A stretch of DNA of 38,163 nucleotides from a virus. Under the pieces are notes generated by a model. That model was not told the origin of the DNA. It was given only the letters and a program-made list of their open reading frames with translations, and made no database searches. Positions 1 to 38,163 of the stretch are shown one piece after another (the stretch's first letter is position 1; each line of letters opens with the position of its first letter). Both the position numbers and the translations under genes were made by a program. Where the stretch lies: positions 1 to 38,163 of the IMG/VR virus record IMGVR_UViG_3300003873_000069; one strand, 5' to 3'.

Positions 1-181
1 AAATTTATTTAACCTAATTGTTCTATATATATAGAGTTTAACGATTTAAATTAATCGTTGACGAAGTTCATGAAATTTATTTAACATAATTGTTCTATAT
101 AGAGATTAACGATTTAAATTATTTTGAATTAATCGTTAACGCGATTAATGCGATTACAGAACTTCATGAAATTTATTTAAC
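1..181. repeat. Left terminal repeat array (inverted relative to right end)
   Basis: Two full copies and one partial copy of an imperfect AT-rich unit, starting near positions 1, 73 and 169. Each carries aaatttatttaac, then (units 1 and 2) ttctatata(ta)gag, ttaacgatttaaatt and taatcgtt. The palindrome ttcatgaa links the units. The same unit occurs three times in reverse orientation at 37940-38163, so the two ends of the window mirror one another to within about 8 bases. No coding potential is seen. Such arrays could be replication or partition sites, linear-genome ends, or dispersed repeats at which an assembly stopped; the sequence alone does not decide. Confidence 0.85.
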
Positions 182-230
182 CCGAATGATTTTTAATCAG
201 TTGAAATTTGTTGTACAATGCCATTAGGCA

Positions 231-275
231 TAAAACCACAGGTATAAATCACATTTATACTCGACCGGTGGTGTT
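231..275. other. Hairpin in left non-coding region
   Basis: An 8-bp perfect stem gtataaat/atttatac with a 3-base loop lies at 242-260. It is flanked by an outer accac (235-239) that can pair with gtggt (268-272). It sits alone in the 182-610 gene-free stretch, which is otherwise AT-rich and has no open frame with a ribosome binding site. It has no T-tract on either strand, so it is not an obvious terminator. Its role is unknown; a structured site linked to the nearby terminal repeats is possible. Confidence 0.5.
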
Positions 276-280
276 CATTG

Positions 281-371
281 TTTTCAATCAATTTAATCAT
301 ATTATTTCAATTATTATTTAATCATATTATTTCAATTATTATTTCAATCAATTTAATCATAATATTTCAAT
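281..371. repeat. AT-rich direct repeats
   Basis: A roughly 30-bp unit (tttcaatcaatttaatcat followed by a/t-rich tatttcaatt) occurs at 282-311 and 342-371. A shorter partial copy lies between them at about 316-340. The array lies inside the non-coding left end, between the terminal repeats and the first gene. The remaining stretch 372-610 shows no gene and only AT-rich sequence downstream of the 611-2326 stop codon. Confidence 0.7.
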
Positions 372-610
372 TTTTCCCTAAATGGTAACAATTTAAAATT
401 TAATCGGAAAAACATAATGATAATGATTCAATAATATGCGTTTTTGTGTAATTAGCTGTTTAATTAGCTGATTTAATACTGCAGTTTGATCGTATTTTTT
501 GTATTTAATTTTTGTATTCGATGAAATGTTCTTAACCGGGTACTACAAAACATCCGTCGTTCAATTGAATGACAGATTAAAAAGTTTAAACGTTTAAATG
601 TTTTTAAAAA

Positions 611-2326
611 TTATATAATTGGTATTTTAATTGGTATTATTTTTTCGAAAGTAAAAGGTACAAGCAAGCCACATAAAGATTGAACGATTGCTGAGACATT
701 TTGAATTACGCTTCTAGTTTTTTCAGTTAATTCAAAAATAACGCAGTCATGAATTTGCACGGTTGTATCAAATATATTCATCATTTGATTTCTAACAGCA
801 CTTTCGAATATTGAATAACGGATATAGTTTCGTTTAGCTTTATGACGTTTCCCACGGCCGAAATTCTGAGGTTTTCTAGTTTTCATATTTTCAAATTCTT
901 CTTCAGTATCGCGTTGAACGTCACCAATACGCAAATCGGCGATTCTAACATTTTTATTGCCTTCGTCAGACAAATATTCATTAAAATAATTGCTTAATTC
1001 TTTAATTTCATTGGCCATTTCATCAATAACCGGTTTATTATATGTTTGTGAACTTTTCTTGTTGTAATTATGTGAAATAAAGTAAGCGTAATCGAATTGG
1101 ACATCATATGATAGCGCGATTAACATTTTTTTGAAGTTGGTTACCGTTAAATTGCATTCTTTAGCGTATTTGCCTCTGAAATGGTCCTTATCAACAATCA
1201 TTTCATGCAATCTGGGCGAATCAACCTTTAACAAATCCATATAGTTCGATTTAATTGTATTCGTACGATAATCATGATACCGAATGTTAAGCATCATTGA
1301 AAATACTGATGTATCAATATCGCATTCATAATAATCTTTGAACAAAATTTTACGTAATCTTTTTGGCATATTAGTAATCGCATTATATGAACGCGAACAA
1401 AAATAAGTTCCCTGATTACAATAGCGCATATCGTCTTCAACGCGGATTTCATCTAATTGAACATGATAATTTTTTCCATCAAAGTATTTAACGCTCGTTA
1501 ATAATGTTGACAACTTTGAATAATCAATGATATTAAATGATTTAACCGCAGCATTTTTTGAATTTACAATATTTTTCATTGTTGCTTCTGTTTTTTGTTT
1601 ACCGGAAACTAGCCGTTCCCGACGTTCAATAAAACGACGGTTTTTATGCACATTTAAGTTATATGAAGTATTATTAGCAGCATCAATGAACGTTTTCATT
1701 CGTTTTAATGTAATAGTCATAAAAGTATATGATTTGCTGCGTTTAATGAATTCGTTGGTCGTTAATAAATCGAACGCAATGTTAATACGGTTATCATTTT
1801 TTTGTTTATGAAATACCCGTGTACTACATAACCTTTGATTATACATGTCCAAAATGTCTGAACCAGCATCGGTTAGTTCGTAGGAACAAGGATGAGATGG
1901 GTTCGCGTTTGAACTGTAATTAAATGCAAGAAACTTTCCGGTTTTTTTGAACGCGCGAAACCCGAAAATACTGTTTGTTAGTGTACAATTATTCGAAGTC
2001 CGCATCTGGTCAGAATAACAATATACACCTGATTCTGGACCATGCGATGTGGTAAAAACATTATTTAATGTATGTGCAAAACCAGAAGCAAATGAACGTA
2101 TAGAACGCTCAGTATATTCATCACGTGAATATTTACGAGAAATATATGCCCGAACGCTGTCGGTTAATAGTTCTAAATGAAAACCAACTGTATTACGCTT
2201 CCGTCTTACTGGTGATTGTAGTTCTTTAATAGAATTGTTTGAGAAATCTGTTGAACTGTAAATGTTTGTCATATTATACGTATTCCTTGCCTTTTTAACA
2301 TGTGTGCGCATGATTATATTTTTCAA
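611..2326 (-). CDS. Putative replication-type protein with polymerase-palm-like motifs
   Basis: Family not recognised with certainty. The 571-residue basic protein has a C-terminal half with three spaced motifs resembling a DNA polymerase palm. The first is CDIDTSVFSMML around residues 335-346 (motif A-like, acidic D336 and D338). The second is NFKKMLIALSYD around 397-408 (motif B-like, Lys and Tyr). The third is VQIHDCVIFEL around 523-533, close to the family A motif C form QVHDELVFEV but with Cys where the second acid normally is. No exonuclease motifs are evident. The frame opens with TTG at 2326; an ATG follows at 2311 and neither has a clear Shine-Dalgarno. The gene is alone next to the left terminal repeats, and its start lies inside one arm of a 37-bp inverted repeat. 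A replication role for the repeat-bounded element is inference. Confidence 0.45.
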   Translation of the reverse strand: MKNIIMRTHVKKARNTYNMTNIYSSTDFSNNSIKELQSPVRRKRNTVGFHLELLTDSVRAYISRKYSRDEYTERSIRSFASGFAHTLNNVFTTSHGPESGVYCYSDQMRTSNNCTLTNSIFGFRAFKKTGKFLAFNYSSNANPSHPCSYELTDAGSDILDMYNQRLCSTRVFHKQKNDNRINIAFDLLTTNEFIKRSKSYTFMTITLKRMKTFIDAANNTSYNLNVHKNRRFIERRERLVSGKQKTEATMKNIVNSKNAAVKSFNIIDYSKLSTLLTSVKYFDGKNYHVQLDEIRVEDDMRYCNQGTYFCSRSYNAITNMPKRLRKILFKDYYECDIDTSVFSMMLNIRYHDYRTNTIKSNYMDLLKVDSPRLHEMIVDKDHFRGKYAKECNLTVTNFKKMLIALSYDVQFDYAYFISHNYNKKSSQTYNKPVIDEMANEIKELSNYFNEYLSDEGNKNVRIADLRIGDVQRDTEEEFENMKTRKPQNFGRGKRHKAKRNYIRYSIFESAVRNQMMNIFDTTVQIHDCVIFELTEKTRSVIQNVSAIVQSLCGLLVPFTFEKIIPIKIPII

Positions 2327-2773: not shown

Positions 2774-3358
2774 TTATATGTACAATTCTGGATATTTCAT
2801 TTTGAATTTGTCATTTCTCAATGTTCGATAATCGCATAGCGGAAAATTATGTGGGTCTACATCAAACAATTCATCGCACCCAGAAAACATGCATTTATAA
2901 TTTTCATTATTTTCAAAATCGAAATTCGGTACTGCTGTTAATGAAGTGCATCCAGCAAACATCATATACGAAATAGCTACGTTGTATGTACAAAATAATG
3001 GTACTGTTTCTAATGACATGCAATTTTGAAACATGAAACTCGCGTTAGTGCATTGTGATAAATCGAATAATGGCACAGATTCCAACGAGATACAATCTGA
3101 AAACATGTGTTGCGTATATATTACATTGGATGTACAGAATAATGGTACAGTTTTTAATGATGAACAACCAGCAAACATGAGTTGCATGTCAGTCACATTG
3201 GATGTATCAAACAACGGCACAGTTTTTAATGATGAACACGTGTTAAACATATAAGACATATCGGTTATAGCTGAGTAATCGTATTTTGAGTTGAGTTCTT
3301 TTGAAGAAATACCATCGAGAATCAAATCGCGCAGTTCTGCTTTGTTAATTTTAATCAT
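2774..3358 (-). CDS. BspA-type leucine-rich repeat protein (DUF285-like)
   Basis: A 194-residue protein made of about six repeats of the form DTSNVTDMxxMFxxCxSLxxVPLF. This is the signature of the BspA/DUF285 family (Mycoplasma-lipoprotein-type LRRs) seen in bacterial surface proteins and some phages. No signal peptide or membrane segment is visible, so it probably acts inside the cell or on the virion. It is the last gene of a minus-strand run starting at the promoter near 4445. The start ATG lies just after the upstream stop, with only a weak ribosome binding site. The exact ligand is unknown; family LRRs usually mediate protein binding. Confidence 0.8.
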   Translation of the reverse strand: MIKINKAELRDLILDGISSKELNSKYDYSAITDMSYMFNTCSSLKTVPLFDTSNVTDMQLMFAGCSSLKTVPLFCTSNVIYTQHMFSDCISLESVPLFDLSQCTNASFMFQNCMSLETVPLFCTYNVAISYMMFAGCTSLTAVPNFDFENNENYKCMFSGCDELFDVDPHNFPLCDYRTLRNDKFKMKYPELYI

Positions 3359-4448: not shown

Positions 4449-5042
4449 TTAATTAAATGGTGAAATATTAAATTTTGTGAATAATAATTTGAGTTCTTTC
4501 GTTAATTTCTTTGATTTCGGGTACTCTGGAAATTTCTTTTTCTTTTGGTTTTTTCGTTTTGGCACGAACTCTTCAGCATTTGACATTCTTTTTAATTTAT
4601 TATAGTTTCTTTTTGATACCGGTTTAGGTTTTGGTACTTCGTTCGGGTGCACATGATAGTTGCCATTTTCATCAACATAAGCGCCAACATCCAAATAATC
4701 CGCGAGGTTCCTTAAAAAATCGCTTAATTTTATTGGATGAGTACTTTCGTCTGAACCGAAATACCGTTTATAAGAATTCGTTATTTTACCTTCGATCGCA
4801 TTCGCTCTGAAATCGATCGCATTTCTAATGGTTCCTTTTTGTTCGGAGCAATCATCGTTAATTAGTTTATGAATGTGGTCAAGCACTGTTTTATCTTGGG
4901 GTACATAAATGTTCAATAATGGACAAATCCCATTATTGAATTTCCATAATTTATCCCGTAACAATTTAATATCAGATTGTTTCATCAATATCAGATTGTC
5001 CGGGATGTTTTTCGGTTCAGACTTATCAGACGATTCAGACAT
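4449..5042 (-). CDS. 49: Recombination endonuclease VII (gp49-like), zinc cysteines mostly lost
   Basis: Endonuclease VII resolves Holliday junctions and trims branched DNA before packaging. Residues about 20-105 align with T4 gp49: NGICPLLNIY (first Cys position), LDHIH (catalytic Asp-His), RNAIDFRANAIEG (catalytic Asn and Glu region). Three of the four T4 zinc cysteines are replaced (second of the first pair, and both of the CNLC pair). The fold must therefore be held without the usual zinc, as an inference. A lysine-rich C-terminal tail (about 150-197) is not the T4 one. ATG 5042 is preferred over an upstream TTG at 5057, because it falls just after the preceding stop. It is the last gene of the gp55 run. 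Confidence 0.7.
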   Translation of the reverse strand: MSESSDKSEPKNIPDNLILMKQSDIKLLRDKLWKFNNGICPLLNIYVPQDKTVLDHIHKLINDDCSEQKGTIRNAIDFRANAIEGKITNSYKRYFGSDESTHPIKLSDFLRNLADYLDVGAYVDENGNYHVHPNEVPKPKPVSKRNYNKLKRMSNAEEFVPKRKNQKKKKFPEYPKSKKLTKELKLLFTKFNISPFN

Positions 5043-5046
5043 AAAA

Positions 5047-5325
5047 TTACCAGTCAACTAGATGAACTGCTTTATTTGATCGTGTTTCAACTGTCGAATT
5101 AATATTATGAAATGCACAATCGCTTTCTATTAAAGATTTAAAATAAAAATCTTCTGAAATTGCATCTCCAACAAGCACTAACGGATAATCGAATTTCAAA
5201 CAAAAATCAGAAATCAGCTCCAAGATTGGTGCTTGACGATTTTTTTCTTTTCTTTCAATCACATACGTCATTACTTCGTTTACTAAAATGGGATAATCGT
5301 TCGAATCAAATGTTTTATTCGTCAT
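5047..5325 (-). CDS. Possible late-transcription coactivator (gp33-like)
   Basis: A 92-residue acidic protein. Its central part (PILELISDFCLKFDYPL, then AISEDFYFKSLIESDC) resembles in length and pattern the helical RNA-polymerase-binding part of T4 gp33, which bridges gp55-polymerase and the sliding clamp. Similarity is weak and the C-terminal clamp-binding hydrophobic tail is not clear (ends AVHLVDW). It directly follows gp55 with an 11-base overlap, which supports a shared role. ATG 5325 has GAGGT six bases upstream and is preferred over the earlier frame start at 5352. It could equally be an unrelated small protein. Confidence 0.4.
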   Translation of the reverse strand: MTNKTFDSNDYPILVNEVMTYVIERKEKNRQAPILELISDFCLKFDYPLVLVGDAISEDFYFKSLIESDCAFHNINSTVETRSNKAVHLVDW

Positions 5326-6142
5326 TTTGTACCTCGAATTCAATATTATCAAACTTCGATTTAATAATATCTACGTTTTTGTTATCTAAATCAGTCGAAC
5401 ACACAAAAACATAATTGTCTGCTTCGTTTTTATTCATGATTGATTTTACTTCATTTTGAATTGTATCAACATCATAATCAGGCAGTTCACTTAAATAAAA
5501 ATATTTGGTAATCACACACGCTGATGCTGGATGAATACCGTTTGATTCTTTGTACAGTTCGGTAAATCCAGGTATCTCATATACTCCTTTCGTTTCTGCA
5601 TAAGAACGGACTTTCTGGTTTTCTTTCTTTTGTTTTTTGATAATATAAACGATACTATTATGAATAATCTGAGAGATATATGCAAATGAATTGACTTGTA
5701 CGCCAGTTCGCTCGGATATTAATGTATGATTGAAATTATGTAAGTACTTTAATATTTTATACGATGCGTCAGAATAAAAATCGTCTTTATATGTGTACCC
5801 TGAAAATTTCGGTTTAGTAAGAATGTGTTTAGTCATGAGAATGATGATATTGCCTAATCGTTCTTCTTCAGCTTGAGTCGCTGCTGTTTGTACCGAATCT
5901 TCAATTGCTCGTTCTTTAATAATCGATTTAATATGAGCTCGACGTTTCGGGTCTAAAGATTGTTTAACATACGCTTTTTCATTTAAAGCAGCGAACGTAT
6001 TAACTAATTCATCAATTCTTTTGTTTTTGTCAGGTACGCCAATATCTTTTTTTGCATTGTTAATCCGAATAATCAAAGTTTTTAACTCTAACTCATTCGT
6101 ATAGTTATGCTTAATACTTTTTTGTTTATTTGTGTATTTCAT
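5315..6142 (-). CDS. 55: Late-transcription sigma factor gp55
   Basis: gp55 is the minimal sigma factor of T4-like phages and directs host RNA polymerase to TATAAATA late promoters. The 275-residue protein carries the region-2-like core: a helical EEERLGNIIILMTKHIL, then KDDFYSDASYKILKYLHNF, then NSFAYISQIIHNSIVYIIKK (about residues 95-185). It is longer than T4 gp55 (185 aa), with an extra N-terminal helical region of about 80 residues and an acidic C-terminus. It is followed by the gp33-like gene and endonuclease VII. Matching TATAAATA sites in front of structural genes in this window support the assignment. Confidence 0.8.
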   Translation of the reverse strand: MKYTNKQKSIKHNYTNELELKTLIIRINNAKKDIGVPDKNKRIDELVNTFAALNEKAYVKQSLDPKRRAHIKSIIKERAIEDSVQTAATQAEEERLGNIIILMTKHILTKPKFSGYTYKDDFYSDASYKILKYLHNFNHTLISERTGVQVNSFAYISQIIHNSIVYIIKKQKKENQKVRSYAETKGVYEIPGFTELYKESNGIHPASACVITKYFYLSELPDYDVDTIQNEVKSIMNKNEADNYVFVCSTDLDNKNVDIIKSKFDNIEFEVQNDE

Positions 6143-6191: not shown

Positions 6192-6683
6192 ATGAACCAA
6201 AATAATTTAGCGCAAAAGTCGAACTATACTGCTGGTTCGCACGCCCTTCAAATAGGTATGTTATATCTTACATCGGTGAATATTCCTGGTATTTCTTTCA
6301 ATCATCCTGAACTTTCAACACGTTCAGGGTCAAAACTCAACCTTGGTGGTGACACTTTATCGTATAATTCATTAGCTCTAGAGGTTTTACTGGATGAACA
6401 GTTTTTAGTGTATGAAGAACTGACTAAAAAAATATTTGATTCAGTGAATCCGGTGTCCGGTGCATTTGCAATGCCAGATTTCGACTTTTGGGTTCAAATT
6501 AATAACTCAAAAGGTAATTACACTATGAAAATCGATTTTACAAACTGTAGAATAGAATCAATCGGCGATATTACGTTTGAACCAAGTTCAGATGAAACAG
6601 AATTCACATTGTCAATCGAATTAAAATACGATTACTATAAAGTAACCAGAACTCAAATCGTGCCAACTCTTCAAGTTAAGTAA
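6192..6683 (+). CDS. Putative virion protein, tail-tube-like fold, 163 aa
   Basis: The sequence has the pattern seen in small beta-rich tail proteins of T4-like phages: VNIPGISF near residue 30, GDTLSYNSLALEVLLDEQF around 54-72, and a C-terminal beta pair ending YDYYKVTR. It begins with ATG after a GGGG-type site and a TATAAATA late promoter 30 bases upstream, so it is a late gene. It is the only plus-strand gene among minus-strand early genes and ends back-to-back with the dNMP kinase. A tail tube, tail terminator or neck-associated role is inferred; the exact T4 counterpart is not identified. Confidence 0.5.
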   Translation: MNQNNLAQKSNYTAGSHALQIGMLYLTSVNIPGISFNHPELSTRSGSKLNLGGDTLSYNSLALEVLLDEQFLVYEELTKKIFDSVNPVSGAFAMPDFDFWVQINNSKGNYTMKIDFTNCRIESIGDITFEPSSDETEFTLSIELKYDYYKVTRTQIVPTLQVK

Positions 6684-8805: not shown

Positions 8806-9870
8806 TTAACTACAACTTTCGCAAATATGCTCGTTGCTTTCTTTTTGTTGTTTTTGATAATACAACGTTTTACCGCCCAATTTGAAATAATAAAAATTTA
8901 ATTTAATCATTTCTAATAGCGAATCTGGTTTAGCAATATACAAATTGACCGATTGTGCCTGGTCGATCCACTTTTGTCTAACCGCAGCATTTCGAAGTAA
9001 CGCATATTGGTCACAATCAAACGCTCGTTTATAGTACTGGTTGTTCTTTTTGAAATTCGGCACGACCGTCGGCACAATAATAGTGCCTTCTTCCTTATAA
9101 AAGAAATCGTGAATAGGCTCAATACTTTCAATTGCATTTATAGCTTTTCCCGATGTTGCTGTGGGAGCCACAGCCATTAATTGAGCATTCCGGATACCGA
9201 ACGTTTTGACTCGTTCTGCTAGTGTGTCCCATTTCTCTTTATCATAACAGTACTCGGTCAATCCCTCAGCACGTTTTGATGATTTATGGATAGGTAGGAT
9301 ACCTTTTGCCCACTCTGTTTCATAGAACTTTTCAAACTTGCCTTTTTCAATAGCCAAATCTACACTAGCCGAAATAATACGGTAAGACAAATCATCAAAC
9401 AATTCATCAGTTTCTTCGGCAGCTTCTTGTGTATCAATAACAATCTTTTTTAGTGCAAGATAATTGGTGTAATTAAGAACACCAATGCCCAAATAACGAT
9501 ACATCATGTTTGAGTTTTTTGCTTCTTTCACTGGATATGTTGCTACGTCAATAGTATTATCCAAACCTCGGACTAATGTATTAACCAACTCGTTCTTTTC
9601 AGATTCATTCATATAGAACCAACGTTCTAAATTGATACTCGACAGGTTGCACAAAGAAATTTCGCCCGAATTGTATGTCTTTGTAATGACCTTTTCACCG
9701 TTTTCTGTAGTTACTAGGGTTTCGTCGATGATTGTTGATGGTCTGGATGGCAGTACAATTTCCGTGCAATTATGTACTAATACATCGTTAGCAAAAAAAT
9801 TATGATTATCTTGAACAGTAATATCATAAACCGGGATTTCTTCTTCCAAATATTCAATCTTTATGGTCAT
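8806..9870 (-). CDS. nrdA: Split intein C-half fused to NrdA C-terminal part
   Basis: The first 34 residues are a split-intein C-fragment: VYDITVQDNHNFFAND, then LVHN with the terminal Asn and penultimate His. The first C-extein residue is the Cys of CTEIVLPS. That Cys corresponds to the active-site thiyl-radical Cys of class I RNR (C439 in E. coli NrdA). The C-extein carries the second redox Cys (ISLCNLSS), the radical-transfer tyrosine pair (KTLYYQKQ), and the C-terminal redox pair CESC. ATG 9870 with AAGGAAG upstream is preferred over GTG 9876. It must be joined in trans to the N-half encoded at 10803-12479; the mature protein is about 784 residues. It overlaps the end of the HNH gene by 17 bases. 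Confidence 0.95.
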   Translation of the reverse strand: MTIKIEYLEEEIPVYDITVQDNHNFFANDVLVHNCTEIVLPSRPSTIIDETLVTTENGEKVITKTYNSGEISLCNLSSINLERWFYMNESEKNELVNTLVRGLDNTIDVATYPVKEAKNSNMMYRYLGIGVLNYTNYLALKKIVIDTQEAAEETDELFDDLSYRIISASVDLAIEKGKFEKFYETEWAKGILPIHKSSKRAEGLTEYCYDKEKWDTLAERVKTFGIRNAQLMAVAPTATSGKAINAIESIEPIHDFFYKEEGTIIVPTVVPNFKKNNQYYKRAFDCDQYALLRNAAVRQKWIDQAQSVNLYIAKPDSLLEMIKLNFYYFKLGGKTLYYQKQQKESNEHICESCS

Positions 9871-10786
9871 TTTCACTTCCTTTTATTTTGTGTCTTCTTC
9901 GTATGGAAACCGACAACTTACGCTTGTGTTCTTCTGTTTTTATATATACTGGATATGCTTCGTTGAATTTGTCTTCATAAGCCATTTTAAATCTCCTCAT
10001 CCCGCTTGTATCATTATAATTTTTAAATCTGAATTTTGAAAATGTTTTAGGGAACTTAGGGAACTCGTCATACATTTTTTTATCTATTCTACCGTTTTTT
10101 AGTATATAAGCATGTGCAATATTTAATAACTGTTCATCGGTATATCCAGAATATCTGCCATTCTTTTCTCCATGTCGAGCACATTTAGCTTTTCTTTCTT
10201 CTGAAAGTTTTGTTCCTTTCGAATGGTGTACCCACACCCCGGACAACACATTTGGATGATTAACTGAAACGGCGCCTATCATTTTATTTGTGATTGAATC
10301 TTTAACTGGCATTGTTCCTTTTCTAGCATCAGATATTCTCCTTGTCCCATCCTTCGTATGCCAGCCGTGCGTATTCCTAACTACTGCAGAGTTATGTTTA
10401 ATCCACGCATAACCCTGCAGTAATGATTTCGTTAATCTATATTCGTTCTTAACTTCCATGATTTTTCTATTCTTATTATATTGAAACCCATTTAAACAAA
10501 ACCGTACGGCTAGTATATCGCCTCTTTGTTTAAATGCTTTCCAACGTATCTTATGAGCAAAGACATGTTCTTCCGGCAACAATCTAACAACATCTTCATT
10601 TGTATTATCAATATCATGTTTTGGGTTAATATGATGCAACTCAGAATAAATATATTCATCATTCAATCTTGCATCTTTCTTGTTTCTGATAGTTAAACGT
10701 TCTCGTAATGTCGTATTTTTACAATATTCAATAAATGTGTTATATAATTTTTTATAATTCATATATTTATAAATTAGTAAAACCAT
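9854..10786 (-). CDS. HNH homing endonuclease between the two nrdA/intein halves
   Basis: Free-standing endonuclease. The HNH core is ELHHINPKHDIDNTNEDVV then EEHVFAHK (residues about 49-79), with metal/catalytic histidines at 51/52 and 74/78. The C-terminal half is basic, with modular DNA-binding segments (KLSEERKAKCARHG, and KTEEHKRKLSVSIRRRHK at the end). It lies exactly where a full intein would carry its endonuclease domain, but as a separate gene. The frame opens at ATG 10786. A second ATG at 10762 follows a TATAAATA motif (10771-10764) so closely that late transcription from that site would miss it, so the start is uncertain. It probably mobilises the interrupted nrdA locus. Confidence 0.85.
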   Translation of the reverse strand: MVLLIYKYMNYKKLYNTFIEYCKNTTLRERLTIRNKKDARLNDEYIYSELHHINPKHDIDNTNEDVVRLLPEEHVFAHKIRWKAFKQRGDILAVRFCLNGFQYNKNRKIMEVKNEYRLTKSLLQGYAWIKHNSAVVRNTHGWHTKDGTRRISDARKGTMPVKDSITNKMIGAVSVNHPNVLSGVWVHHSKGTKLSEERKAKCARHGEKNGRYSGYTDEQLLNIAHAYILKNGRIDKKMYDEFPKFPKTFSKFRFKNYNDTSGMRRFKMAYEDKFNEAYPVYIKTEEHKRKLSVSIRRRHKIKGSENDHKD

Positions 10787-10802
10787 CTCAGCACATGAAA
10801 AA

Positions 10803-20381: not shown

Positions 20382-20408
20382 AGTGATAAAATCCTTTCAG
20401 TTTTTGTA

Positions 20409-20812: not shown

Positions 20813-20821
20813 AGCGCTCTC

Positions 20822-22572: not shown

Positions 22573-22580
22573 AATAACCT

Positions 22581-24205: not shown

Positions 24206-24213
24206 TTTATCTA

Positions 24214-25122: not shown

Positions 25123-25124
25123 GA

Positions 25125-28268: not shown

Positions 28269-28957
28269 TTTGTTTTCCAATTACTCGGGAAAAAACCAGG
28301 AAACTCATCAAACAAGTATTGTTCTTCGTGATTGCAATGTGGACACATAACCGTACTAACCATATTTAATTTGAATTTTGTTTTTACCCATTCTTGAAAG
28401 ATTTTATCGAATGCGTCAATGTCCATTTCATTTATTATATTAATGATTTCGTCGAATGTTAACGAAACGTCACCATTAAATGACTGAATATGTAACACAA
28501 AATCTGCAATGTCGACTTCGTTTTTATATTTCAGCATTGTTTCCTCATAGAATTTCCTATTACACAATTCCCCGAGTTCGATATTGTAGCTTGTATCTGA
28601 AGACACTACAGCAATTGGTTTATATTTTTCGAATACAGGTTTAACCACATCTTTAACATCTGTTACGAACTCATAAGCATTTTCGCAACTAGAGCACTCG
28701 AAATTATAAACTAATGCAGTTTTTACGGATTCAGCACGAATGTTTATCAATGCGTATCGAAATTCGTCTTCTGATAGAACTATATTCTTATCGTCTATGC
28801 AATCATACACAATTGCTTCTTTAATTGAAATATCGTCTTCGGTATTTGTTGAATTGATGTATTTCTTCTTGTCTTTTACTTTCCATTTTCTGAATTTTAT
28901 TTGTTTATTCCCGATTTTTAAAACAAACTTATAGTCTTTTGAAACTGATGTATTCAT
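28265..28957 (-). CDS. Baseplate hub assembly protein, gp26-type (zinc), second copy
   Basis: 230 residues with the same plan as the neighbour: an N-terminal beta region (YKFVLKIGNKQIKFRKWKVKDKKKY), CSSC near residue 90, and CPHC near 206, followed by DEFPGFFPSNW. The two tandem genes look like distant paralogues. AAGGAAA precedes ATG 28957. Overlap with the next gene (ATGA) implies coupled translation. A role in assembling the hub is inferred from the family and context. Confidence 0.65.
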   Translation of the reverse strand: MNTSVSKDYKFVLKIGNKQIKFRKWKVKDKKKYINSTNTEDDISIKEAIVYDCIDDKNIVLSEDEFRYALINIRAESVKTALVYNFECSSCENAYEFVTDVKDVVKPVFEKYKPIAVVSSDTSYNIELGELCNRKFYEETMLKYKNEVDIADFVLHIQSFNGDVSLTFDEIINIINEMDIDAFDKIFQEWVKTKFKLNMVSTVMCPHCNHEEQYLFDEFPGFFPSNWKTK

Positions 28958-28966
28958 AGTTTTTCC

Positions 28967-29482
28967 TTAAAATATTATTGGATTCCTGCATTTAAAGTTT
29001 ACGTCAAATTCTGCGATCTGTGCTTCTGTTTCATTACTGAATTGCAATTGGCCAACCGCGTCGATCATCGTGTCTTCAAGATTGAACAGAACTGTGTCTG
29101 GTCCTTCGTGATCGCTATCTTTGGACAACGTTACTATCATTGCACATTCATTAAAGTATGCCATCTTCTGTGTATTATACGTTCTCACGAACCTTCGGTA
29201 TAACGACATTTGGTTATAGTCTCTGAATGTTACACTAAACCTGAATAGCTGGTTTCTACCAACATGCATTTTCCACATATCTGCAACAAACCCTTCAATT
29301 GGAGAATTCGTGAATTCGGGTGTATTAATATTTTTAATACAGTACGATAGGTTTTTAATTTCTTCTTCTTGCCATTGTGCTTCTCTGATCGTATATTCAC
29401 TAAAATGAAACTGCACACCAAATGTGTTAATAAATGACCACTTAGTGTCATATGCTTTCCTAACACCTTCTTCAAAATTCAT
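28967..29482 (-). CDS. Tail-tube-like baseplate protein, 171 aa
   Basis: First gene of the long minus-strand tail operon. The pattern WSFINTFGVQFHFSE, then RNQLFRFSVTFRDYNQMSLYRRFVRTYNTQK (about 76-106), and a C-terminal beta strand (AQIAEFDVNFKCRNP) is that of gp19-like tube-fold proteins. It may be a tube-initiator (gp54-like) or terminator. AGGCGG precedes ATG 29482; a TATAAATA late promoter lies 32 bases upstream. The fold call is pattern-based. Confidence 0.5.
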   Translation of the reverse strand: MNFEEGVRKAYDTKWSFINTFGVQFHFSEYTIREAQWQEEEIKNLSYCIKNINTPEFTNSPIEGFVADMWKMHVGRNQLFRFSVTFRDYNQMSLYRRFVRTYNTQKMAYFNECAMIVTLSKDSDHEGPDTVLFNLEDTMIDAVGQLQFSNETEAQIAEFDVNFKCRNPIIF

Positions 29483-29556: not shown

Positions 29557-30417
29557 ATGTCATCTGGTGTTCAAAATTTATTAGACTCAGTATTGAATGA
29601 TGGTGCAAGACCATCTAAATTCGAGGTATACTTTTCGTTCAAAGACCCAAATACAGGAATAAGTAGTACTGACATTGTATTTTTGGGAAAAACTACGTCT
29701 TTTCCCAGCAAATCGCATTCACCGGTCGATTTTAAATATAAAGGCCGAAAAATTCCAATTAAAGGACAAGTGAAATACAATCAGGTTTGGGACTGTACAT
29801 TTTATTTAACTGAAGACCATAAATTAAAGTACGTGTTCGATAATTGGATGGAATCGTTAGACAACATACACTACGGTTCCATAAATAGTAAAGGTTTGCG
29901 AGACGCTATTGTCGCGAATCATGCTGGTTATACGACTGATATTACAATTATACAAAAAGATTTTGATGGAGTGAATAATATGGCACAATACGTTATACAT
30001 AACGCGTTTCCGACGTCTATTTCCGCTTCTCCGGTATCTTACGAAAGTACCAGCGCAGTTTTAGATTTTACTGTTTCGTTTTCGTATAGTCATTATACAA
30101 TGTCAGTAATGGCTGCAGCACAAGGGAATTTTATTGATGAAATGGTTGGTAAATTAGAAAGTATGGCACAGAACGCTGTAAACGGCGTAATGAATCAATC
30201 AAAAAACGGCGTAAACAATATGTTAGGCAGCGCAATGCAAAGCGTATCATCTAGCGTTCCTGGGTTGTCTTCATTAACACCAACATCATCAAGGCAACAA
30301 TCCAAATATGGTGCAAATACTGAAGGTGATGTGACTGCGCCAATTCAACCATCAAGCGGCGCAAACGCCGGTAACATGTTGAGCAAGACCGGTTTGTTAT
30401 CAGGATTTGGTAAATGA
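29557..30417 (+). CDS. gp19-like tail tube family protein, 286 aa (possible gp54)
   Basis: The N-terminal about 190 residues have the T4 gp19 tube pattern: GARPSKFEVYFSF, TTSFPSKSHSPVDFKYKGRK, WDCTFYLTEDHKLKYVFDNW, and HNAFPTSISA...VSYESTSAVLDFTVSFSYSHY. A further about 95-residue Ser/Gln/Ala-rich helical tail is absent from gp19 and fits an initiator such as gp54 (320 aa in T4). GAGGAT precedes ATG 29557. It overlaps the next gene by ATGA and is the first of three tube-fold genes in a row. Confidence 0.65.
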   Translation: MSSGVQNLLDSVLNDGARPSKFEVYFSFKDPNTGISSTDIVFLGKTTSFPSKSHSPVDFKYKGRKIPIKGQVKYNQVWDCTFYLTEDHKLKYVFDNWMESLDNIHYGSINSKGLRDAIVANHAGYTTDITIIQKDFDGVNNMAQYVIHNAFPTSISASPVSYESTSAVLDFTVSFSYSHYTMSVMAAAQGNFIDEMVGKLESMAQNAVNGVMNQSKNGVNNMLGSAMQSVSSSVPGLSSLTPTSSRQQSKYGANTEGDVTAPIQPSSGANAGNMLSKTGLLSGFGK

Positions 30418-31139
30418 GTAACATTAATACGTTAAAATCTCATCTCGGCATTGGTATCGGCTCGAGAAAAAATAAGTTTTTAATTGAATTGCCGATGCGT
30501 TCTCTAGATGGCGAAAAAATAAACGCACTAGCTAAAAGTGCATCATTGCCTGAGAGGAAGATAAATCCCGTAAAAATAATGCATAAAGGCAGACAATATT
30601 ATGTACGCGGGGAAACCGAGTACCCTGGGACGTACCAAATTACGGTACTAGATGATTCGGAAATGAACGTAAGGAAAGCGATTGATGATTGGTTAACTGA
30701 GATAGACGATTCAGCAAAAACTACCCGTGCAGGTTTGGGTTCTTCTTCGTTTGAAAAAAACACAAACAATCTATTGGGAATTCTTCAATCGGGCAAAAAC
30801 ATATATTCGGATGTTAGATCTGCGTTGAACGATCCATCGAACGCAATGTCGAACACTTTGGTTGGTATGATAGATCCTAGTCAAAAATCGCCTTCTGCAA
30901 AATATCAAGTTGATATTAACATTTGGCAATTATCTAGCAACGGTCAGAAAGTATATGGATACAAACTACAAAATGCGTTTCCTATTAACGTTGGTGCAGT
31001 AACATATGAAGATTCAGACCAAAACACGTTAACAGAATTTACAGTAGAATTTGCGTATAGCGAGTTTTTGCCGTTAGAAAACAGAACTGCGCTTGGTAAC
31101 ATTGCTACAGTAGATGGTAGATTATCAAAATCATTTTAA
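30414..31139 (+). CDS. gp19-like tail tube family protein, 241 aa
   Basis: Second tube-fold gene. Motifs: NKFLIELPMRSLDG, SASLPERKINPVKIMHKGRQYYVRGETEYPGTYQITVLDD (about 40-80), KLQNAFPINVGAVTYEDSDQNTLTEFTVEFAYSEF (about 182-216). An insertion of about 55 residues (about 100-155), Asn/Ser-rich, distinguishes it from the 193-aa neighbour. It starts within the stop of the upstream gene. It is a probable minor tube or tube-adaptor protein. Confidence 0.65.
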   Translation: MSNINTLKSHLGIGIGSRKNKFLIELPMRSLDGEKINALAKSASLPERKINPVKIMHKGRQYYVRGETEYPGTYQITVLDDSEMNVRKAIDDWLTEIDDSAKTTRAGLGSSSFEKNTNNLLGILQSGKNIYSDVRSALNDPSNAMSNTLVGMIDPSQKSPSAKYQVDINIWQLSSNGQKVYGYKLQNAFPINVGAVTYEDSDQNTLTEFTVEFAYSEFLPLENRTALGNIATVDGRLSKSF

Positions 31140-31141
31140 AA

Positions 31142-31150
31142 TAATAAATA
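31142..31150 (+). promoter_or_regulatory. Late-promoter-like TAATAAATA
   Basis: TAATAAATA lies directly after the 30414-31139 gene and 17 bases before the ATG of the tube gene at 31168, with AGAGGT between them. It would give the main tube protein its own late transcript. Confidence 0.5.
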
Positions 31151-31167
31151 CAATAAAGAGGTAATAC

Positions 31168-31749
31168 ATGGCAAACAAACTAGAAGAACTTAAAGGCGCA
31201 ATCGGCGCCGGTGCTAGAGCTAACAAATACAGGGTGAATTTTTCGGTGCCATCTGATGTCGTGGTAGTTTCAAATTTGCAAGATGCTGATGTTTTATGCA
31301 AAGCGGCATCATTTCCATCTATGACTATCGGGCAAATCGAAGCATGGAACCAAGGTAGAAAACTATTAATCCCGGGTGACACGACATATTCAAACACATG
31401 GGAATTGACATTTTATACAACAGAAGACCATGGTTTGCGTCGTGATATGATTTCGTGGATGCGTTCAGCAGACCATTTTCAAAATAATCAACACACTGGT
31501 AACCCGGGAGCGTTAATGGGAGAACTATCTGTTGAACAACTGGACTCTGCTGGAATGGGAACTGCTAAGTATACGTTTCATAACGTTTTCGTTTCAGAAG
31601 TTGGCGAGTTGACTTTGGGCGATGATACTGCGGATACAATTCACGAATTTTCAGTAACGTTCAGTTTCACTGACTGGGTCGTTGGCAATGGCGCGTTGAA
31701 TGTACCAGGTAAAGCTGGAACACCAACTAATAACGTAATAGCTGGTTAA
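31168..31749 (+). CDS. 19: Major tail tube protein gp19
   Basis: 193 residues (T4 gp19 has 163), the most compact of the three paralogues. Motifs: NKYRVNFSVPSDVVVV, KAASFPSMTIGQIEAWNQGRKLLIPGD, TWELTFYTTEDHGLRRDMISWM, YTFHNVFVSEVGELTLGDDT, and HEFSVTFSFTDWVV. It has its own promoter-like site, a strong AGAGGT ribosome binding site and a terminator immediately after, as expected of an abundant protein. gp19 polymerises into the inner tube of the contractile tail. Confidence 0.82.
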   Translation: MANKLEELKGAIGAGARANKYRVNFSVPSDVVVVSNLQDADVLCKAASFPSMTIGQIEAWNQGRKLLIPGDTTYSNTWELTFYTTEDHGLRRDMISWMRSADHFQNNQHTGNPGALMGELSVEQLDSAGMGTAKYTFHNVFVSEVGELTLGDDTADTIHEFSVTFSFTDWVVGNGALNVPGKAGTPTNNVIAG

Positions 31750-31865: not shown

Positions 31866-32426
31866 ATGAGCATATTATCTAAATTGAAGGGTTTCGGGTC
31901 AAAAATCGTACAGGGCATTAAAGAATTAACATTGCCGCAAAGCAACAAAGCGATTAAAGAGCTTATAAAAGAAAAGAAGAAACTTAGCGTTAAAGATTTC
32001 AAACCAGGCAATATCATTTTAATGAAGTACGTAGCAAAAGACGATACACAAACGTACGACAAAACACCACTTGCGTTGGTACTTAGGAGTAATAGCACTC
32101 ACACGCTTGCTTTGAACTTTCATTGGGCACCACTTTCAATGAGAATCAACCTTATCAAAATTATTATTATAACTAATAAGAAAAACATACAACGTAACAA
32201 ACCACTGGAATTTGATTACCAACAGATAAGGCCATTATTAAAGCAACTGGGGTACGCACCTATTATTCGGCGATATATCAATAGCAGAATATCGTCTCAA
32301 GGTGTAGTTATTCCGCCTGAACGTTTAATGCAGGTAGCACGATTAAAAACAGAATCGTTTACAAATGGAAAATTCTCTGCTGCTCAGATGCTTGCAATGG
32401 CTAAACGAAGAGGAAAAACAAAGTAA
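31866..32426 (+). CDS. Conserved phage protein of unknown role, 186 aa
   Basis: Found where T4 has the portal gene gp20, but far too short for a portal. It has an N-terminal basic helical region, then KPGNIILMKYVAK, YDKTPLALVLRSNSTHTLALNFHWAP (about 66-91), and a basic C-terminus ending RRGKTK. The central pattern (G-x-x-I-x-x-x-Y-x-A... P-L-x-x-V-L... L-x-L-N-x-H) is reminiscent of a small structural or DNA-end family of myoviruses, but I cannot name it safely. No strong ribosome binding site precedes ATG 31866. Confidence 0.6.
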   Translation: MSILSKLKGFGSKIVQGIKELTLPQSNKAIKELIKEKKKLSVKDFKPGNIILMKYVAKDDTQTYDKTPLALVLRSNSTHTLALNFHWAPLSMRINLIKIIIITNKKNIQRNKPLEFDYQQIRPLLKQLGYAPIIRRYINSRISSQGVVIPPERLMQVARLKTESFTNGKFSAAQMLAMAKRRGKTK

Positions 32427-32651: not shown

Positions 32652-33374
32652 ATGAATATGACATATAAACTAATTTTCGATGAGGATGCAAAAACATCAG
32701 TTAAAGTCGAAGAACAACTCGACGAAGCATCTGGCAAATCCGAGAAAAAATATAAAATTTCTGGTGTATTTAGCACTATTGGTGAAAAAAACAGAAACGG
32801 CCGTATTTACCCGCGTAATTTGTGGACAACCGAAGTTCAAGCGTACCAAGAAAACTTCTCAACTGGTTCTATTAACACGTTAATGGAATACAAACACCCA
32901 GCTCGTTCAGCGGTTGACCCTATGGAAGCGGTTGCAAAAATTACTAAGTTATATATTAAAGATAACTATGTAATGGGCGAAGCAGTTCTTTTAAATAATG
33001 ACAAAGCGAATCAGTTAAAAACATTGATTGATAACGATATTGTTATTTCTGTTTCATCACGTGCAGTCGGTTCAGTTAAAAACGGAGTAGTCGAAAACTT
33101 CAAATTGATTACATACGACATTGTACCAGACCCATCAGATTATAACGCGACTATGAACGGCGTTGTTGAAAACCATAAATTGAACGAAGGCGTCGTTGAA
33201 GGTTTGGCGTTTGACCTTGATAGTCATGGTAATATTGTTGCAGCGAAAGTTGAAGAAGAATCCACAGATAATCCAGATGAAACGTTAACCGAAGAACATG
33301 TTTCTGTCGATGATGTTCAGTCTGCTGTGGCCGAAAAATTTAATAAAATTTTTACAAGCTTAAAATATAAATAA
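32652..33374 (+). CDS. 21: Prohead core protein protease gp21
   Basis: It processes scaffold, core and capsid proteins during head maturation. Family motifs: FSTIGEKNRNGRIYPRNLW (about 40-58), YKHPARSAVDP with catalytic His (H82), VISVSSRAVG with catalytic Ser (135 or 136), and YDIVPDPSDYNA. 240 residues, near T4 gp21 (212), with an acidic C-terminal extension (EEESTDNPDETLTEE) that is probably autoprocessed. It sits between the core gene and the scaffold gene as in T4. Confidence 0.9.
   Translation: MNMTYKLIFDEDAKTSVKVEEQLDEASGKSEKKYKISGVFSTIGEKNRNGRIYPRNLWTTEVQAYQENFSTGSINTLMEYKHPARSAVDPMEAVAKITKLYIKDNYVMGEAVLLNNDKANQLKTLIDNDIVISVSSRAVGSVKNGVVENFKLITYDIVPDPSDYNATMNGVVENHKLNEGVVEGLAFDLDSHGNIVAAKVEEESTDNPDETLTEEHVSVDDVQSAVAEKFNKIFTSLKYK
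33366..33373 (+). promoter_or_regulatory. T4-type late promoter TATAAATA
   Basis: Exact TATAAATA overlapping the last codons of gp21 and 21 bases before the scaffold ATG, with AAAGGAG between. Confidence 0.75.
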
Positions 33375-33393
33375 ATCCAAAAGGAGAACAAAC

Positions 33394-34692
33394 ATGCTTA
33401 AAGAAATCTTTGAGTCATTAGACAAAACAGTGTTTACCGCTGAATTGCGCGAATCATTAGAACGACAGTTTAATGAAGCAGTTGAAGTTCAAGCGAATGC
33501 ATTGGTTGAAGAACGTATTGAGGAAGAACTTGATACGTTGAGCGAAAAATCGGAAGCACACATTGATTTGCTTAATGAAAAATCTAATGAACATATCAAA
33601 ATGCTTAACGAACAATCTAATAATGTCGATGAACACATCGAGATGCTTAATGAGAAGTCCGATGAACACATCGAGATGCTTAATGAGAAGTCCGATGAAC
33701 ATATCAAAATGCTTAATGAGAAGTCCGATGAACACATCGAGATGCTTAATGAGAAGTCCGATGAACACATCGAGATGCTTAATGAGAAGTCCGATGAACA
33801 CATCGAGTTTTTAAACGAAAAAGCTGAAGAATACGCTGAAATGAAAATGGATGGCATGTTGAATTCAGTAGATATGTACCTAGACAAGGTTGTTGACGAA
33901 TTTGTAACCGAAGCCCGTGAAAGTTTGGCTGAATCTTCAAAATCCGAAAAATCTGATATGATTATCGAAGCATTCGATACAATGTTAGTTGCAACTGGTG
34001 TTGATATTGCTAAAATTGTTGAGGCTAAGGACGAAAGCGCTGAAGCATATAAACTTGACGAAAGTATCAATAAGTACGATGAGTTGTTGGACGAAAGCGC
34101 TAAATTGCACGAAGAAAATCGCAAATTGGTTAAACTAGGTATCATTACCGAACTTAAAGAAGGTTTAACTGAAAAGGCATCAAACCGTTTTGATAAACTT
34201 GCTAAAATCGTCGAATTCACAAATGACTCCGCTTATTTGGACAAACTTGAAATGATTCGTGAAAACGTTCTTGTTGGTTGCCCTGATGAATCTGTTGATT
34301 TAGCTGAATCAAATGACCGCCTTGAATCAGTAATTCTTGACCTTAAAGAAGAATTGTCTGGTCTTAAAGAAGAAGTCATTACAATTAATGAAGAAGTCAG
34401 TACAATTAATGAAGAAAAAGAAGAACTTATTAAGTTGGGTGTCATTACTGAACTTAAAGAAGGTCTTTCAATCATTCAATCTGAAAAGTTCGAACGTTTA
34501 GCAACACAAATCGATTTTGTTAATGATATGTCATTCGTAAACAAACTTGAAGCGCTTAAAGAATCTGTACAACTTAACCGCGGGTCTTCCAATTTGTTTG
34601 AATCAGAAAAACCTCGCAGGACTGAACGAGCAAAACGTGCAGAACGTGTTGAACTTGATTCGTCTGTTGCACCTTGGGCACATTTGGTTTAA
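33394..34692 (+). CDS. 22: Prohead scaffold protein gp22-like, with 11-residue repeats
   Basis: The main core scaffold. 432 residues (T4 gp22 has 269). Residues 50-151 are about nine units of NEKSDEHIEML, an 11-residue (hendecad) coiled-coil repeat with one 3-residue insertion. Residues 244-293 and 344-393 are a duplicated domain (KLVKLGIITELKEGL / ELIKLGVITELKEGL). The C-terminus is basic (RRTERAKRAERVE). Highly acidic and helical overall, as expected of a protein that is degraded by gp21. Good AAAGGAG site; its own late promoter. Confidence 0.87.
   Translation: MLKEIFESLDKTVFTAELRESLERQFNEAVEVQANALVEERIEEELDTLSEKSEAHIDLLNEKSNEHIKMLNEQSNNVDEHIEMLNEKSDEHIEMLNEKSDEHIKMLNEKSDEHIEMLNEKSDEHIEMLNEKSDEHIEFLNEKAEEYAEMKMDGMLNSVDMYLDKVVDEFVTEARESLAESSKSEKSDMIIEAFDTMLVATGVDIAKIVEAKDESAEAYKLDESINKYDELLDESAKLHEENRKLVKLGIITELKEGLTEKASNRFDKLAKIVEFTNDSAYLDKLEMIRENVLVGCPDESVDLAESNDRLESVILDLKEELSGLKEEVITINEEVSTINEEKEELIKLGVITELKEGLSIIQSEKFERLATQIDFVNDMSFVNKLEALKESVQLNRGSSNLFESEKPRRTERAKRAERVELDSSVAPWAHLV
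33541..33846. repeat. 33-bp coding tandem repeats in scaffold gene
   Basis: About nine 33-bp units (core gatgaacacatcgagatgct). The middle five are almost identical at DNA level, the outer ones diverged, so expansion is recent. Unit length is a multiple of three, so copy-number change keeps the frame and alters coiled-coil length by 11 residues. Confidence 0.9.
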
Positions 34693-34720
34693 ACCGTAAT
34701 TATAAAACACAGTTAGATAA

Positions 34721-34728
34721 TATAAATA
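34721..34728 (+). promoter_or_regulatory. T4-type late promoter TATAAATA
   Basis: Exact TATAAATA in the 82-base gap between scaffold and capsid genes, 46 bases upstream of the capsid ATG. It would supply the high expression needed for the capsid protein. Confidence 0.78.
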
Positions 34729-34774
34729 ATTTAAAATCTGATTGAAAAGAATTTACTACTATAGGAGAAAGTAA

Positions 34775-36217
34775 ATGAAAAATATTGATGCTTTAATTGA
34801 GAGCACAAAATTCCCATCGTTGAGTGACACTGATAAAGCTGTAATGTCAATGATGTTGGAAAATACACAAAAAGAACATAACCATTTGGTTAACGAAGGA
34901 ACATTCAGTGGTGATGTAGCACAATTTACACCAATCTTGATGCCTATGGTTCGTCGTGTATATCCTAATTTGATTGCAAACGAATTGCTTGGTGTTCAAC
35001 CAATGTCAATGCCAACTGGTTTCATCTATGCTTTGACTCATGAATATACTGGTAACGGTATTGCTGGTCAAGGTACTAATCCTAATTCTAACGCAATCGT
35101 TGCTGATGTAACTGGCGTTTTGATTCCACCAGTAATTGGTGATGCTGTAACATTTACACCAGCTGGTGTTGGTGCTGCTGTTGTAACTGGTACCGTTTTA
35201 CATTTTGAACCAACTACATTGGCTACAGGCGTTGTTGCAACACGCGTATTATTGAATGGCTTCCTTCCTGGTTCAATCGCTGCTGGCGCAACATTGGCTT
35301 TCCCTGACCATGCGGTCGGTGCTGTAGTTGGTGCAACTGTACCAGCAACAGTTGGTGCGGTATTCTCAAACGAAGCTTCATTCGGTACAATCTTGCATAA
35401 CTACACAGGTCCTTATACTACAGCACAAGCTGAAGTACTTGGTACCGATATGAAAGAACTTGGTTTCTCAATCTCACGTAAGAACGTTACAGCTGTTTCT
35501 CGCGCTTTGAAAGGCCAATATACTGTTGAAATGTATCAAGATTTGAAGGCTCAACATGGTTTGCTTGCTGATGAAGAAGTAATGTCATTGATGTCTTATG
35601 AAATGCAAGCTGAAATCGATCGTGAAGTCGTTAACTTCGTAAATGCTAACGCTACACAATTGCCCGATACTGCTTTCGGTGCTGTTAATGCTGGTGCCGG
35701 TGCTGCTACCGTTGATGGTCGTTGGGAAGTTGAACGCTATCGCGCACAATCAATCCGTATCTCTGCTGAAGCTGCTCAAATTGGTCTTGCTACTAAACGC
35801 GGCCAAGGTAACTGCTTGTTGGTTTCTCCAAAAGTTGCAACAATGTTGGAACAAGTTGGAACATTCAAGATTGCTGAATCTGCTCCTGGCGTTTCTGCTC
35901 CTGTATCCGGTGGCGTTGCTGGTACATTCGATGGCCGTTATAAAGTTATCGTTGACCAATACGCAACTGCTGACTACTGTACAGTAATGTATAAAGGCCA
36001 AGATCGTCGCGATGCAATGGGCTTCTTCGCGCCTTATATCCCAATGTCCTTTACCAAGGTTACTAACCAAGCTTCTGGTCAACCAGCGGTTGTTGCAAAA
36101 ACCCGCTATGCTTTGGATACAATCCCTGGTATCTCTTCTCCAACTTCAAATGACCGTGCTGCTAATTATGCTCGTTCATTCGCGGTTAACTTTGCAAATA
36201 CAGTACTAGCAGGATGA
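34775..36217 (+). CDS. 23: Major capsid protein gp23
   Basis: HK97-fold shell protein, 480 residues (T4 gp23 has 521). Recognisable parts: TPILMPMVRRVYPNLIANELLGVQPMSMPTGFIYAL (about 50-87), KELGFSISRKNVTAVSRALKGQYTVEMYQDLKAQHGLLADEE (about 228-268), and GFFAPYIPMSF (about 417-427). A gp21-type cleavage site is likely after Glu in LVNEGTF (about residue 41). Residues 105-200 are an Ala/Val/Gly-rich insertion. Codon use is more biased (TTG, GCT, GGT) than in neighbours, as expected for high expression. TAGGAG precedes ATG 34775, and a terminator follows. Confidence 0.96.
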   Translation: MKNIDALIESTKFPSLSDTDKAVMSMMLENTQKEHNHLVNEGTFSGDVAQFTPILMPMVRRVYPNLIANELLGVQPMSMPTGFIYALTHEYTGNGIAGQGTNPNSNAIVADVTGVLIPPVIGDAVTFTPAGVGAAVVTGTVLHFEPTTLATGVVATRVLLNGFLPGSIAAGATLAFPDHAVGAVVGATVPATVGAVFSNEASFGTILHNYTGPYTTAQAEVLGTDMKELGFSISRKNVTAVSRALKGQYTVEMYQDLKAQHGLLADEEVMSLMSYEMQAEIDREVVNFVNANATQLPDTAFGAVNAGAGAATVDGRWEVERYRAQSIRISAEAAQIGLATKRGQGNCLLVSPKVATMLEQVGTFKIAESAPGVSAPVSGGVAGTFDGRYKVIVDQYATADYCTVMYKGQDRRDAMGFFAPYIPMSFTKVTNQASGQPAVVAKTRYALDTIPGISSPTSNDRAANYARSFAVNFANTVLAG

Positions 36218-36355: not shown

Positions 36356-36374
36356 ATATTATAAGGGGCATCTT

Positions 36375-37802
36375 ATGACGATAGAATTAACATTATTAAA
36401 GAGTTACATATCTGAACGATTAGTAACAAGAACTGGAACGCCAAACGCTGCGGTACTACGAAGGGAAGAGTTCCTCAAGTCTGCCGAATGCGAATCAATT
36501 ATGCATTACACGCTCTGGATGAACGAATTAAACTCAGATGCGAAAATTTCATTACGTATAATGGTATTGCATCATGGTATTACTGATTTTTCAAAATGCG
36601 AATTGTGTGGAAACTCAGTTAAATTCAAAACATACAACAAATACCCAAGATTCTGTTCAAAAAGTTGTTCATGAAAAAGTACTAAAGAACTTAGACGAAC
36701 AAACGAGTTATCGAAATATAACGAATTAAAGAAGTCACAAACGGTTCATTCTCTTGAAGACACCAAACAATACATTAAATCGAAATGGTTAAAATCTGGC
36801 ATATACGAGAAAGAATCCGTTTATGCTGGTTACTATAATTCAATACTGGAACATTCTCCTGACAATGTTGAGTATTCTTCATTTAGTGAACGCATGTATT
36901 TCATATTAAATGATATGCAATCAGAAAACGACAAACCAGTATGTAAGCATTGTTCTAAAGCAGTGAAGTTCATCGCTTCATTTTATAGAGAATTCTGTTC
37001 TAACGCATGTCAATCTTCACACAATGCAGATAAAAGACAAGCAACATACGAAAGCAGAACGGGTTACTCTCATCCCCATCACAATCCAGAAGTAAAATCA
37101 AGGATGCAGCATTGTCTTGATACTTTAGGTGTTAAACATCAGTGGAACAATCCTGTACCGTCACAGCGTACTAAGATTGAACGGTACGATGACCCATATT
37201 ATAACAATCCCGAACAAATCAGTAAAACCTGGACCGAAAAGTTTTCAGACCCAGAACAAAAAGATGAGATTATCAAACAACGCGAAGAAGGTATGCTCAA
37301 GAATCATGGTGTTAAGAACGCGATGTCGTCACCAGAGATAAGACAGAAAATGGAAGAAACAATGATCGAGCTATATGGAGTTAAGAATGCATTTTCGTCA
37401 CCAGAGATAAGACAAAAAATAGAAGAAACAATGATCGAGCTATACGGTGCGAGGAGTTACTCTCAGACCATTCACGGTGTAAACGGTTACAAATGGAAGG
37501 ATTACGTATTGCCGAGTGGCACAATCATAAGAATACAGGGTTATGAGAATTTTTTATTAGACGAATTATTGGAGAGCCACGACGAGTCTGAGATAAAGAC
37601 ATCAAGAGTTGACATGCCAGAATTCTGGTACGAGTTAGAAGGGAAGAAGCACCGGTATTTTCCTGACGTATATGTACCAATTACGAACACGATATACGAA
37701 GTAAAATCCGAGTACACTTTAAAATGTAATACACTAAAGAATACACTAAAGTTCCAAAGTGTTAAAGACGCTGGGTACAATTTCGAACTAAAAGTATTTT
37801 AA
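36375..37802 (+). pseudogene. PD-(D/E)xK homing-type endonuclease interrupted by in-frame TGA
   Basis: One 475-codon frame with a single TGA at 36672-36674. Upstream: 99 residues with a zinc-ribbon (CELC...FCSKSC). Downstream: a second ribbon (CKHC...FCSNAC), a duplicated 23-residue NUMOD-like module, and a nuclease domain with LPSGTIIRIQGYENFLLD, FPDVYV and YEVKSEY (PD-x10-ExK). The nuclease is clearly related to that at 12564-13934. TGA serves as an ordinary stop elsewhere here (capsid gene, tube gene), so recoding is unlikely. A C-terminal product could start at ATG 36894 but has no ribosome binding site. A sequencing error is the main alternative. Confidence 0.75.
37308..37445. repeat. 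69-bp duplicated DNA-binding module within endonuclease
   Basis: Two adjacent 69-bp units (37308-37376, 37377-37445) encode GVKNAMSSPEIRQKMEETMI-type modules with few differences. This looks like a recent duplication of a nuclease-associated DNA-binding module. Confidence 0.85.
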
Positions 37803-37844
37803 AACCGGTTATAACATTTAAATCAGTTTGTAGTATTTGACGGC

Positions 37845-37870
37845 GCCGGCATTTATGCTGGCTTTTTTTT
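37845..37870 (+). terminator. Rho-independent terminator
   Basis: An 8-bp stem gccggcat/atgctggc (one G-T pair) with a 2-base loop at 37845-37862, followed by eight T. It ends plus-strand transcription after the endonuclease. The rest of the 37803-37939 stretch shows nothing else. Confidence 0.92.
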
Positions 37871-37939
37871 GTGTGCGATCAACAATCACTTTGTTTAAAC
37901 CTAATTAACACTCATTCCGTAGTTTCTATACGAAAAACA

Positions 37940-38163
37940 ATCAATTCACAATAATTTAAATCGTTAATCTCTATATAGAACAATTCAAAATAAGTAGTTA
38001 AATAAATTTCATGAACTTCGTCAAAATAATCTAAATCGTTAAACTCTATATATAGAACAATTAGGTTAAATAAATTTCATGAAGTTCGTTGACGATTAAT
38101 TCAAAATAATCTAAATCGTTAATCTCTATATAGAACAATTAGGTTAAATAAATTTCATGAAGT
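37940..38163. repeat. Right terminal repeat array (inverted relative to left end)
   Basis: Three imperfect copies of the left-end unit in opposite orientation. Read on the minus strand from 38163 they begin acttcatgaaatttattt..., and contain ttctatatagag and ttaacgattt. Unit starts on the minus strand are near 38163, 38089 and 38017. Together with 1-181 this makes an inverted terminal repeat of tandem units. No gene is seen in it. Confidence 0.85.

Follow-up and report, generated by a model that had tools for sequence, protein, structure and literature searches.

Among the T4-like phages, the Campylobacter group II phages CP220, CPt10, CP21 and IBB_35 (Firehammervirus) carry extragenic arrays of 72-86 bp units at several places in their genomes, with a core of about 75 bp in CP220 (PMC4546147; PMC2853527). 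Their arrays lie between gene modules in both direct and inverted orientation and vary in copy number, and they are the reason why the IBB_35 genome remained in five contigs (PMC4546147; PMC2853527). Slippage or unequal crossing-over together with exchange between arrays has been argued for CP220 (PMC2853527) and CP21 (PMC4546147), and a role as recombination-prone spacers between modules has been proposed for the arrays of the group (PMC4546147; PMC2853527). In our analysis of the CP21 sequence, arrays were found at five places with periods of 72-98.

Here we analyze a complete IMG/VR virus record of 38,163 bp, i.e., a whole contig, hereafter called the window. Like the Campylobacter group II phages, the phage to which it belongs has extragenic tandem arrays of ~70-100 bp units at several sites and in both orientations. 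We consider it very probable that the window is a fragment of a single large T4-like genome whose assembly broke within dispersed intergenic arrays, and the structural part of this explanation is near certain.

Results

The window and its end arrays

The features of the window are, from left to right:

1-182, minus unit orientation: left tandem array, about 2.3 units, corresponding to the right array when read on the reverse strand
611-2326, minus strand: 571-aa ORFan adjoining the left array and transcribed towards it
4449-5057, minus strand: endonuclease VII-like gene (phrog_423, E 1e-20)
5315-6142, minus strand: late sigma factor (gp55-like)
6192-6683, plus strand: tail completion/sheath stabiliser homologue (gp19-family profile match; matches the phiKT1024 gene so named)
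8806-12479, minus strand: ribonucleotide reductase (RNR) large subunit NrdA in two parts, with split intein halves
13903-14991, minus strand: RNR small subunit
17466-29482, minus strand: baseplate wedge, hub, PAAR and tube-cap genes
29557-31749, plus strand: three gp19-like tube genes
31866-32426, plus strand: gp2-like DNA end protector
32652-36217, plus strand: gp21 protease, gp22 scaffold and gp23 major capsid protein
36894-37802, plus strand: homing-endonuclease-like gene (DUF7487), transcribed towards the right array
37845-37862, plus strand: terminator-like hairpin with a T run, separating the last gene from the right array
about 37943-38163, plus unit orientation: right tandem array, about 2.9 units

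The preliminary description of this DNA had listed capsid, scaffold, protease, tube, hub, wedge, RNR and late sigma genes, all of which are borne out by matches in the window. It had also described a block lacking portal, sheath, terminase, neck and a recognised replisome, and indeed no match to portal, sheath, terminase, neck or DNA polymerase was found among the window genes. Across the window and the partner contigs described below, the phage has a T4-type capsid, scaffold, protease, tube, baseplate, portal, sheath, terminase, late sigma factor and late promoter, the motif TATAAATA being enriched upstream of genes.

Both window ends carry the same AT-rich unit of roughly 78 bp (consensus 78 bp) in opposite orientations. 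The match between the right and left arrays (E 5e-47) is far beyond chance, which upholds the earlier observation of one unit arrayed inverted at both ends within about 8 bases of mirror symmetry. Among the inverted arms, 67-155 pairs with 38073-38161 (89 nt, 90% complementary) and 1-29 with 38127-38155 (100%), with further arms at 57-137/37936-38016 and 45-105/38045-38105. The two arrays are ~88-90% alike and differ in unit arrangement, with unit lengths of 66-96 bp at the window ends and 66-101 bp across all arrays. An offset of 8 bases separates the two ends from exact mirror symmetry; in the outward direction, the left end finishes with ...AAATAAATTT and the right end with ...AAATAAATTTCATGAAGT.

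Some further observations concern the genes and the intergenic stretches. The 571-aa ORFan had no match in PHROGs, Pfam, PDB, phage records or IMG/VR; by eye, its motifs YYECDID and IHDCVIFE recall polymerase active-site motifs, and a structure model was uninformative. The NrdA gene is fractured around a free-standing homing endonuclease gene (9854-10786): its first ORF ends with an N-terminal intein portion, and its second ORF starts with the C-terminal portion. Beside the PAAR protein, a 172-aa ORF (20822-21340) weakly resembles a PHROGs family that is labelled toxin (E 6e-7). DUF285 (BspA-like leucine-rich repeat) proteins have many paralogues in this phage and its relatives (window 2774-3358; several ORFs in L070 and L071), and the internal 72-bp DNA repeats of their genes may also disturb assembly. 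One intergenic stretch holds both a perfect 37-nt inverted repeat with arms 85 nt apart (2315-2473) and a 45-bp tandem repeat in three copies (2505-2645).

Partner contigs sharing the unit

Outside the window, the unit is present in only three IMG/VR contigs, all from sample 3300003873, from which the window probably also derives. IMG/VR was scanned three times, each time with a different unit core, and the identical three contigs were returned. Arrays in direct orientation lie at the two ends of contig 000129 (14,005 bp), which encodes portal, a gp4-like head closure protein, two neck proteins, ligase, GroES and DHFR. Contig 000064 (23,749 bp) encodes sheath and an intein-broken terminase, and holds ~11 units internally (~1660-2571). 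The sheath gene flanks this array at one end, and a head-protease-like gene with a terminator flanks it at the other. Contig 000080 (20,326 bp) begins within an array; its genes include those for thymidylate synthase and a DNA methyltransferase. Across the four contigs the unit occurs both direct and inverted, with at least four distinct array sites as judged by flanking genes, and we infer that all three partners belong to the genome of the window.

The preliminary description had suggested looking in the same sample for contigs with the same repeats and the missing genes. This recovered the portal (000129) and the sheath and terminase (000064), but a DNA polymerase contig of this phage was searched for in sample 3300003873 and not found. 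The array of 000064 is the one array of this phage seen with both flanks. The join across it could be an assembly chimera; the same picture of an internal array is seen independently in G013, G015 and G016, the contigs of another sample presented below. No occurrence of the unit was found in cultured phages. Bacterial and archaeal genomes yielded two single exact matches, both in Prevotellaceae bins, which are taken as chance.

The terminase large subunit gene of 000064 (18944-23280; L071 18944-20000, L072 1545-5281) consists of several pieces with intein-like ends, with a T5orf172/GIY-YIG-type ORF between pieces and a HINT-like stretch within the last piece.

Assembly breaks and array polarity

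The longest exact match between copies of different arrays is 72 nt, so that k-mers up to ~71 are ambiguous. Two contig ends, the right one of the window and the left one of 000129, coincide exactly with a base at which copies diverge; at the former, CATGAAGT is followed by T or A among copies. Such an exact divergence base is found at two of the five array-borne contig ends, and these two stops look like what a break in an assembly graph produces.

Array orientation relative to the gene running towards the array is the same at all five readable sites of this phage, and a terminator-like hairpin precedes the array at four of them. The leftmost window genes lie on the minus strand and the rightmost on the plus strand, i.e., both point outward. 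The window ends are therefore inverted because the arrays follow the transcription of their neighbour genes.

Relatives carrying the block on one molecule

Contig 3300012933_000323 (205,555 bp) carries the window block collinearly at 146.4-177.2 kb, and also encodes sheath, portal, neck, ligase, terminase and DNA polymerase. Unlike the window phage, it has no dispersed arrays. The closest cultured capsid is that of Vibrio phage phiKT1024 (63.5% over the whole length), a complete genome of 191,289 bp with a circular map on which the window core genes and all missing genes are found together; this phage and its kin measure 191-196 kb. It too differs from the window phage in having no dispersed arrays, and its gene order is partly different, with the sheath located between the portal and tube genes. 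While portal and sheath are adjacent in phiKT1024 and the 205-kb contig, each adjoins an array in the window phage.

In the contig G013 (3300013233_000184, 36,665 bp), the window block runs in the opposite direction, starting with the capsid and reaching to late sigma. G013 has arrays of its own 69-bp unit, which is unrelated to the window unit:

616-1059: array 1, just beyond the capsid and homing-endonuclease genes
28302-28550: array 2
34298-34633: array 3, ~2 kb beyond the sigma gene

Both outer arrays of G013 have further genes on their far sides. Since these arrays lie at both homologous borders with genes beyond them, the borders of the window block are arrays there too, and the molecule continues. 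The polarity seen in the window phage holds for two of the three G013 arrays, and is therefore a tendency. From the same sample and with the same unit, G015 carries the portal start, neck and ligase, with one array internal and another at one end, and G016 carries terminase and fibre-like genes, with arrays at both ends and an internal one in opposite orientation. The sample of G013 thus repeats the pattern seen for the window independently, with another unit. Additionally, G014 terminates in an 88-bp array directly after the capsid-side homing endonuclease gene, and 000140 from the same sample has a 61-bp array at the corresponding place. Arrays follow the capsid region in four relatives, though the units differ.

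Similarity and candidate identities of the units

In the long array, the similarity between adjacent units (0.877) exceeds that obtained when the unit order is random (0.793, p 0.001). The variant TATTAGAGTATTTAAG is common to the 000129 and 000080 arrays, and GTACTTTAATCGCG to those of 000129 and 000064. Both the neighbour similarity and the variants common to different arrays fit slippage or unequal crossing-over, combined with exchange among the arrays, and from the unit sequences we infer that the units probably multiply in this way.

Several identities of the unit were rejected. As a late promoter it would have contained TATAAATA, which is absent from the consensus, and as a known RNA it had no Rfam match. 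An open frame spans part of the 000064 array; however, unit lengths include 97 and 101 bp, so there is no common frame and the unit is not a coding repeat.

Discussion

If the genome of the window phage is like those of its relatives, it would measure ~190-205 kb. Phage-specific arrays of the ~78-bp unit are scattered between its genes, mostly just past the terminator of a neighbouring gene and running in the direction of that gene's transcription, and assembly very probably stopped inside the arrays, leaving contigs that end in repeats. The more conservative of two earlier readings, that dispersed repeats broke the assembly, agrees with this explanation. It is supported by the same-sample contigs with the unit and the missing genes, by the array inside 000064, by the collinear single-molecule relatives, and by G013, which reads through arrays at both homologous borders.

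What the arrays do is a separate question. By analogy with the Campylobacter group II phages, we lean towards arrays that act as recombination-prone, satellite-like spacers between gene modules and not as termini. Alternatively, selection may maintain the arrays for a dedicated function, be it as an origin, as protein-binding iterons or as an RNA-level element; this would replace the spacer role and leave the genome structure as described. The uniform polarity in five of five arrays with a terminator beside four, an imperfect palindrome within the consensus unit, and the post-capsid arrays of four relatives despite differing units all speak for such a function. However, different relatives have unrelated unit sequences, such arrays are absent from the 205-kb contig and from phiKT1024, the consensus yields neither an Rfam match nor the late promoter motif, and the polarity is not kept in G013. 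We therefore regard a dedicated function as possible but unlikely. A related idea, which we consider doubtful, is that an uncultivated T4-like clade retains arrays at homologous borders even though their unit sequences are wholly replaced between relatives. If true, the arrays would not be junk but a maintained, rapidly replaced device for module shuffling.

The preliminary description also raised the possibility of a multipartite T4-like phage in which the window is a single linear segment; the arrays would then be terminal repeats common to all segments. The inverted arrays at both window ends, and the arrays at both ends of 000129, could be read in this way. Nevertheless, those of 000129 are direct and not inverted, and that of 000064 is internal. 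Segments are expected to have a common exact terminal sequence, whereas the ends observed here differ in sequence, phase and orientation. The window ends are not exact mirror copies; their unit composition is not the same, their stops are offset by 8 nt, and they bear no mark of a terminus. Additionally, G013, the 205-kb contig and phiKT1024 all have the homologous block in their interior, and a literature search turned up no segmented tailed phage. A segmented genome is thus highly improbable, and the claim of a multipartite tailed phage is removed. Inverted ends are also a known form of chimera, but an amplification or assembly artefact such as an inverted chimera is scarcely credible, as the window arrays are only ~88-90% alike with different unit arrangements, recur in three other contigs with intact flanking genes, and follow terminators.

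A single large genome broken at its arrays carries a warning for public viral collections, where T4-like contigs that end in repeats can be pieces of one genome. Such fragments are recognisable by a common sample-specific unit. The unrelated units of the different relatives also make possible a comparative study of the origin of the arrays and their possible role in module exchange.

Despite the similar architecture, the window phage is not a member of Firehammervirus. The capsid of the Campylobacter group II phages has 52% identity to that of the window over 79%, and the 13-bp repeat core of CP21 is absent from the window-phage contigs, whose unit is unrelated. The arrays of the window phage, where complete, are also shorter than those of the Campylobacter group II phages. 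Collectively, a repeat-separated architecture is already known from the latter and is not a new kind of system; new here is that this architecture is found in several uncultivated environmental relatives with unrelated units.
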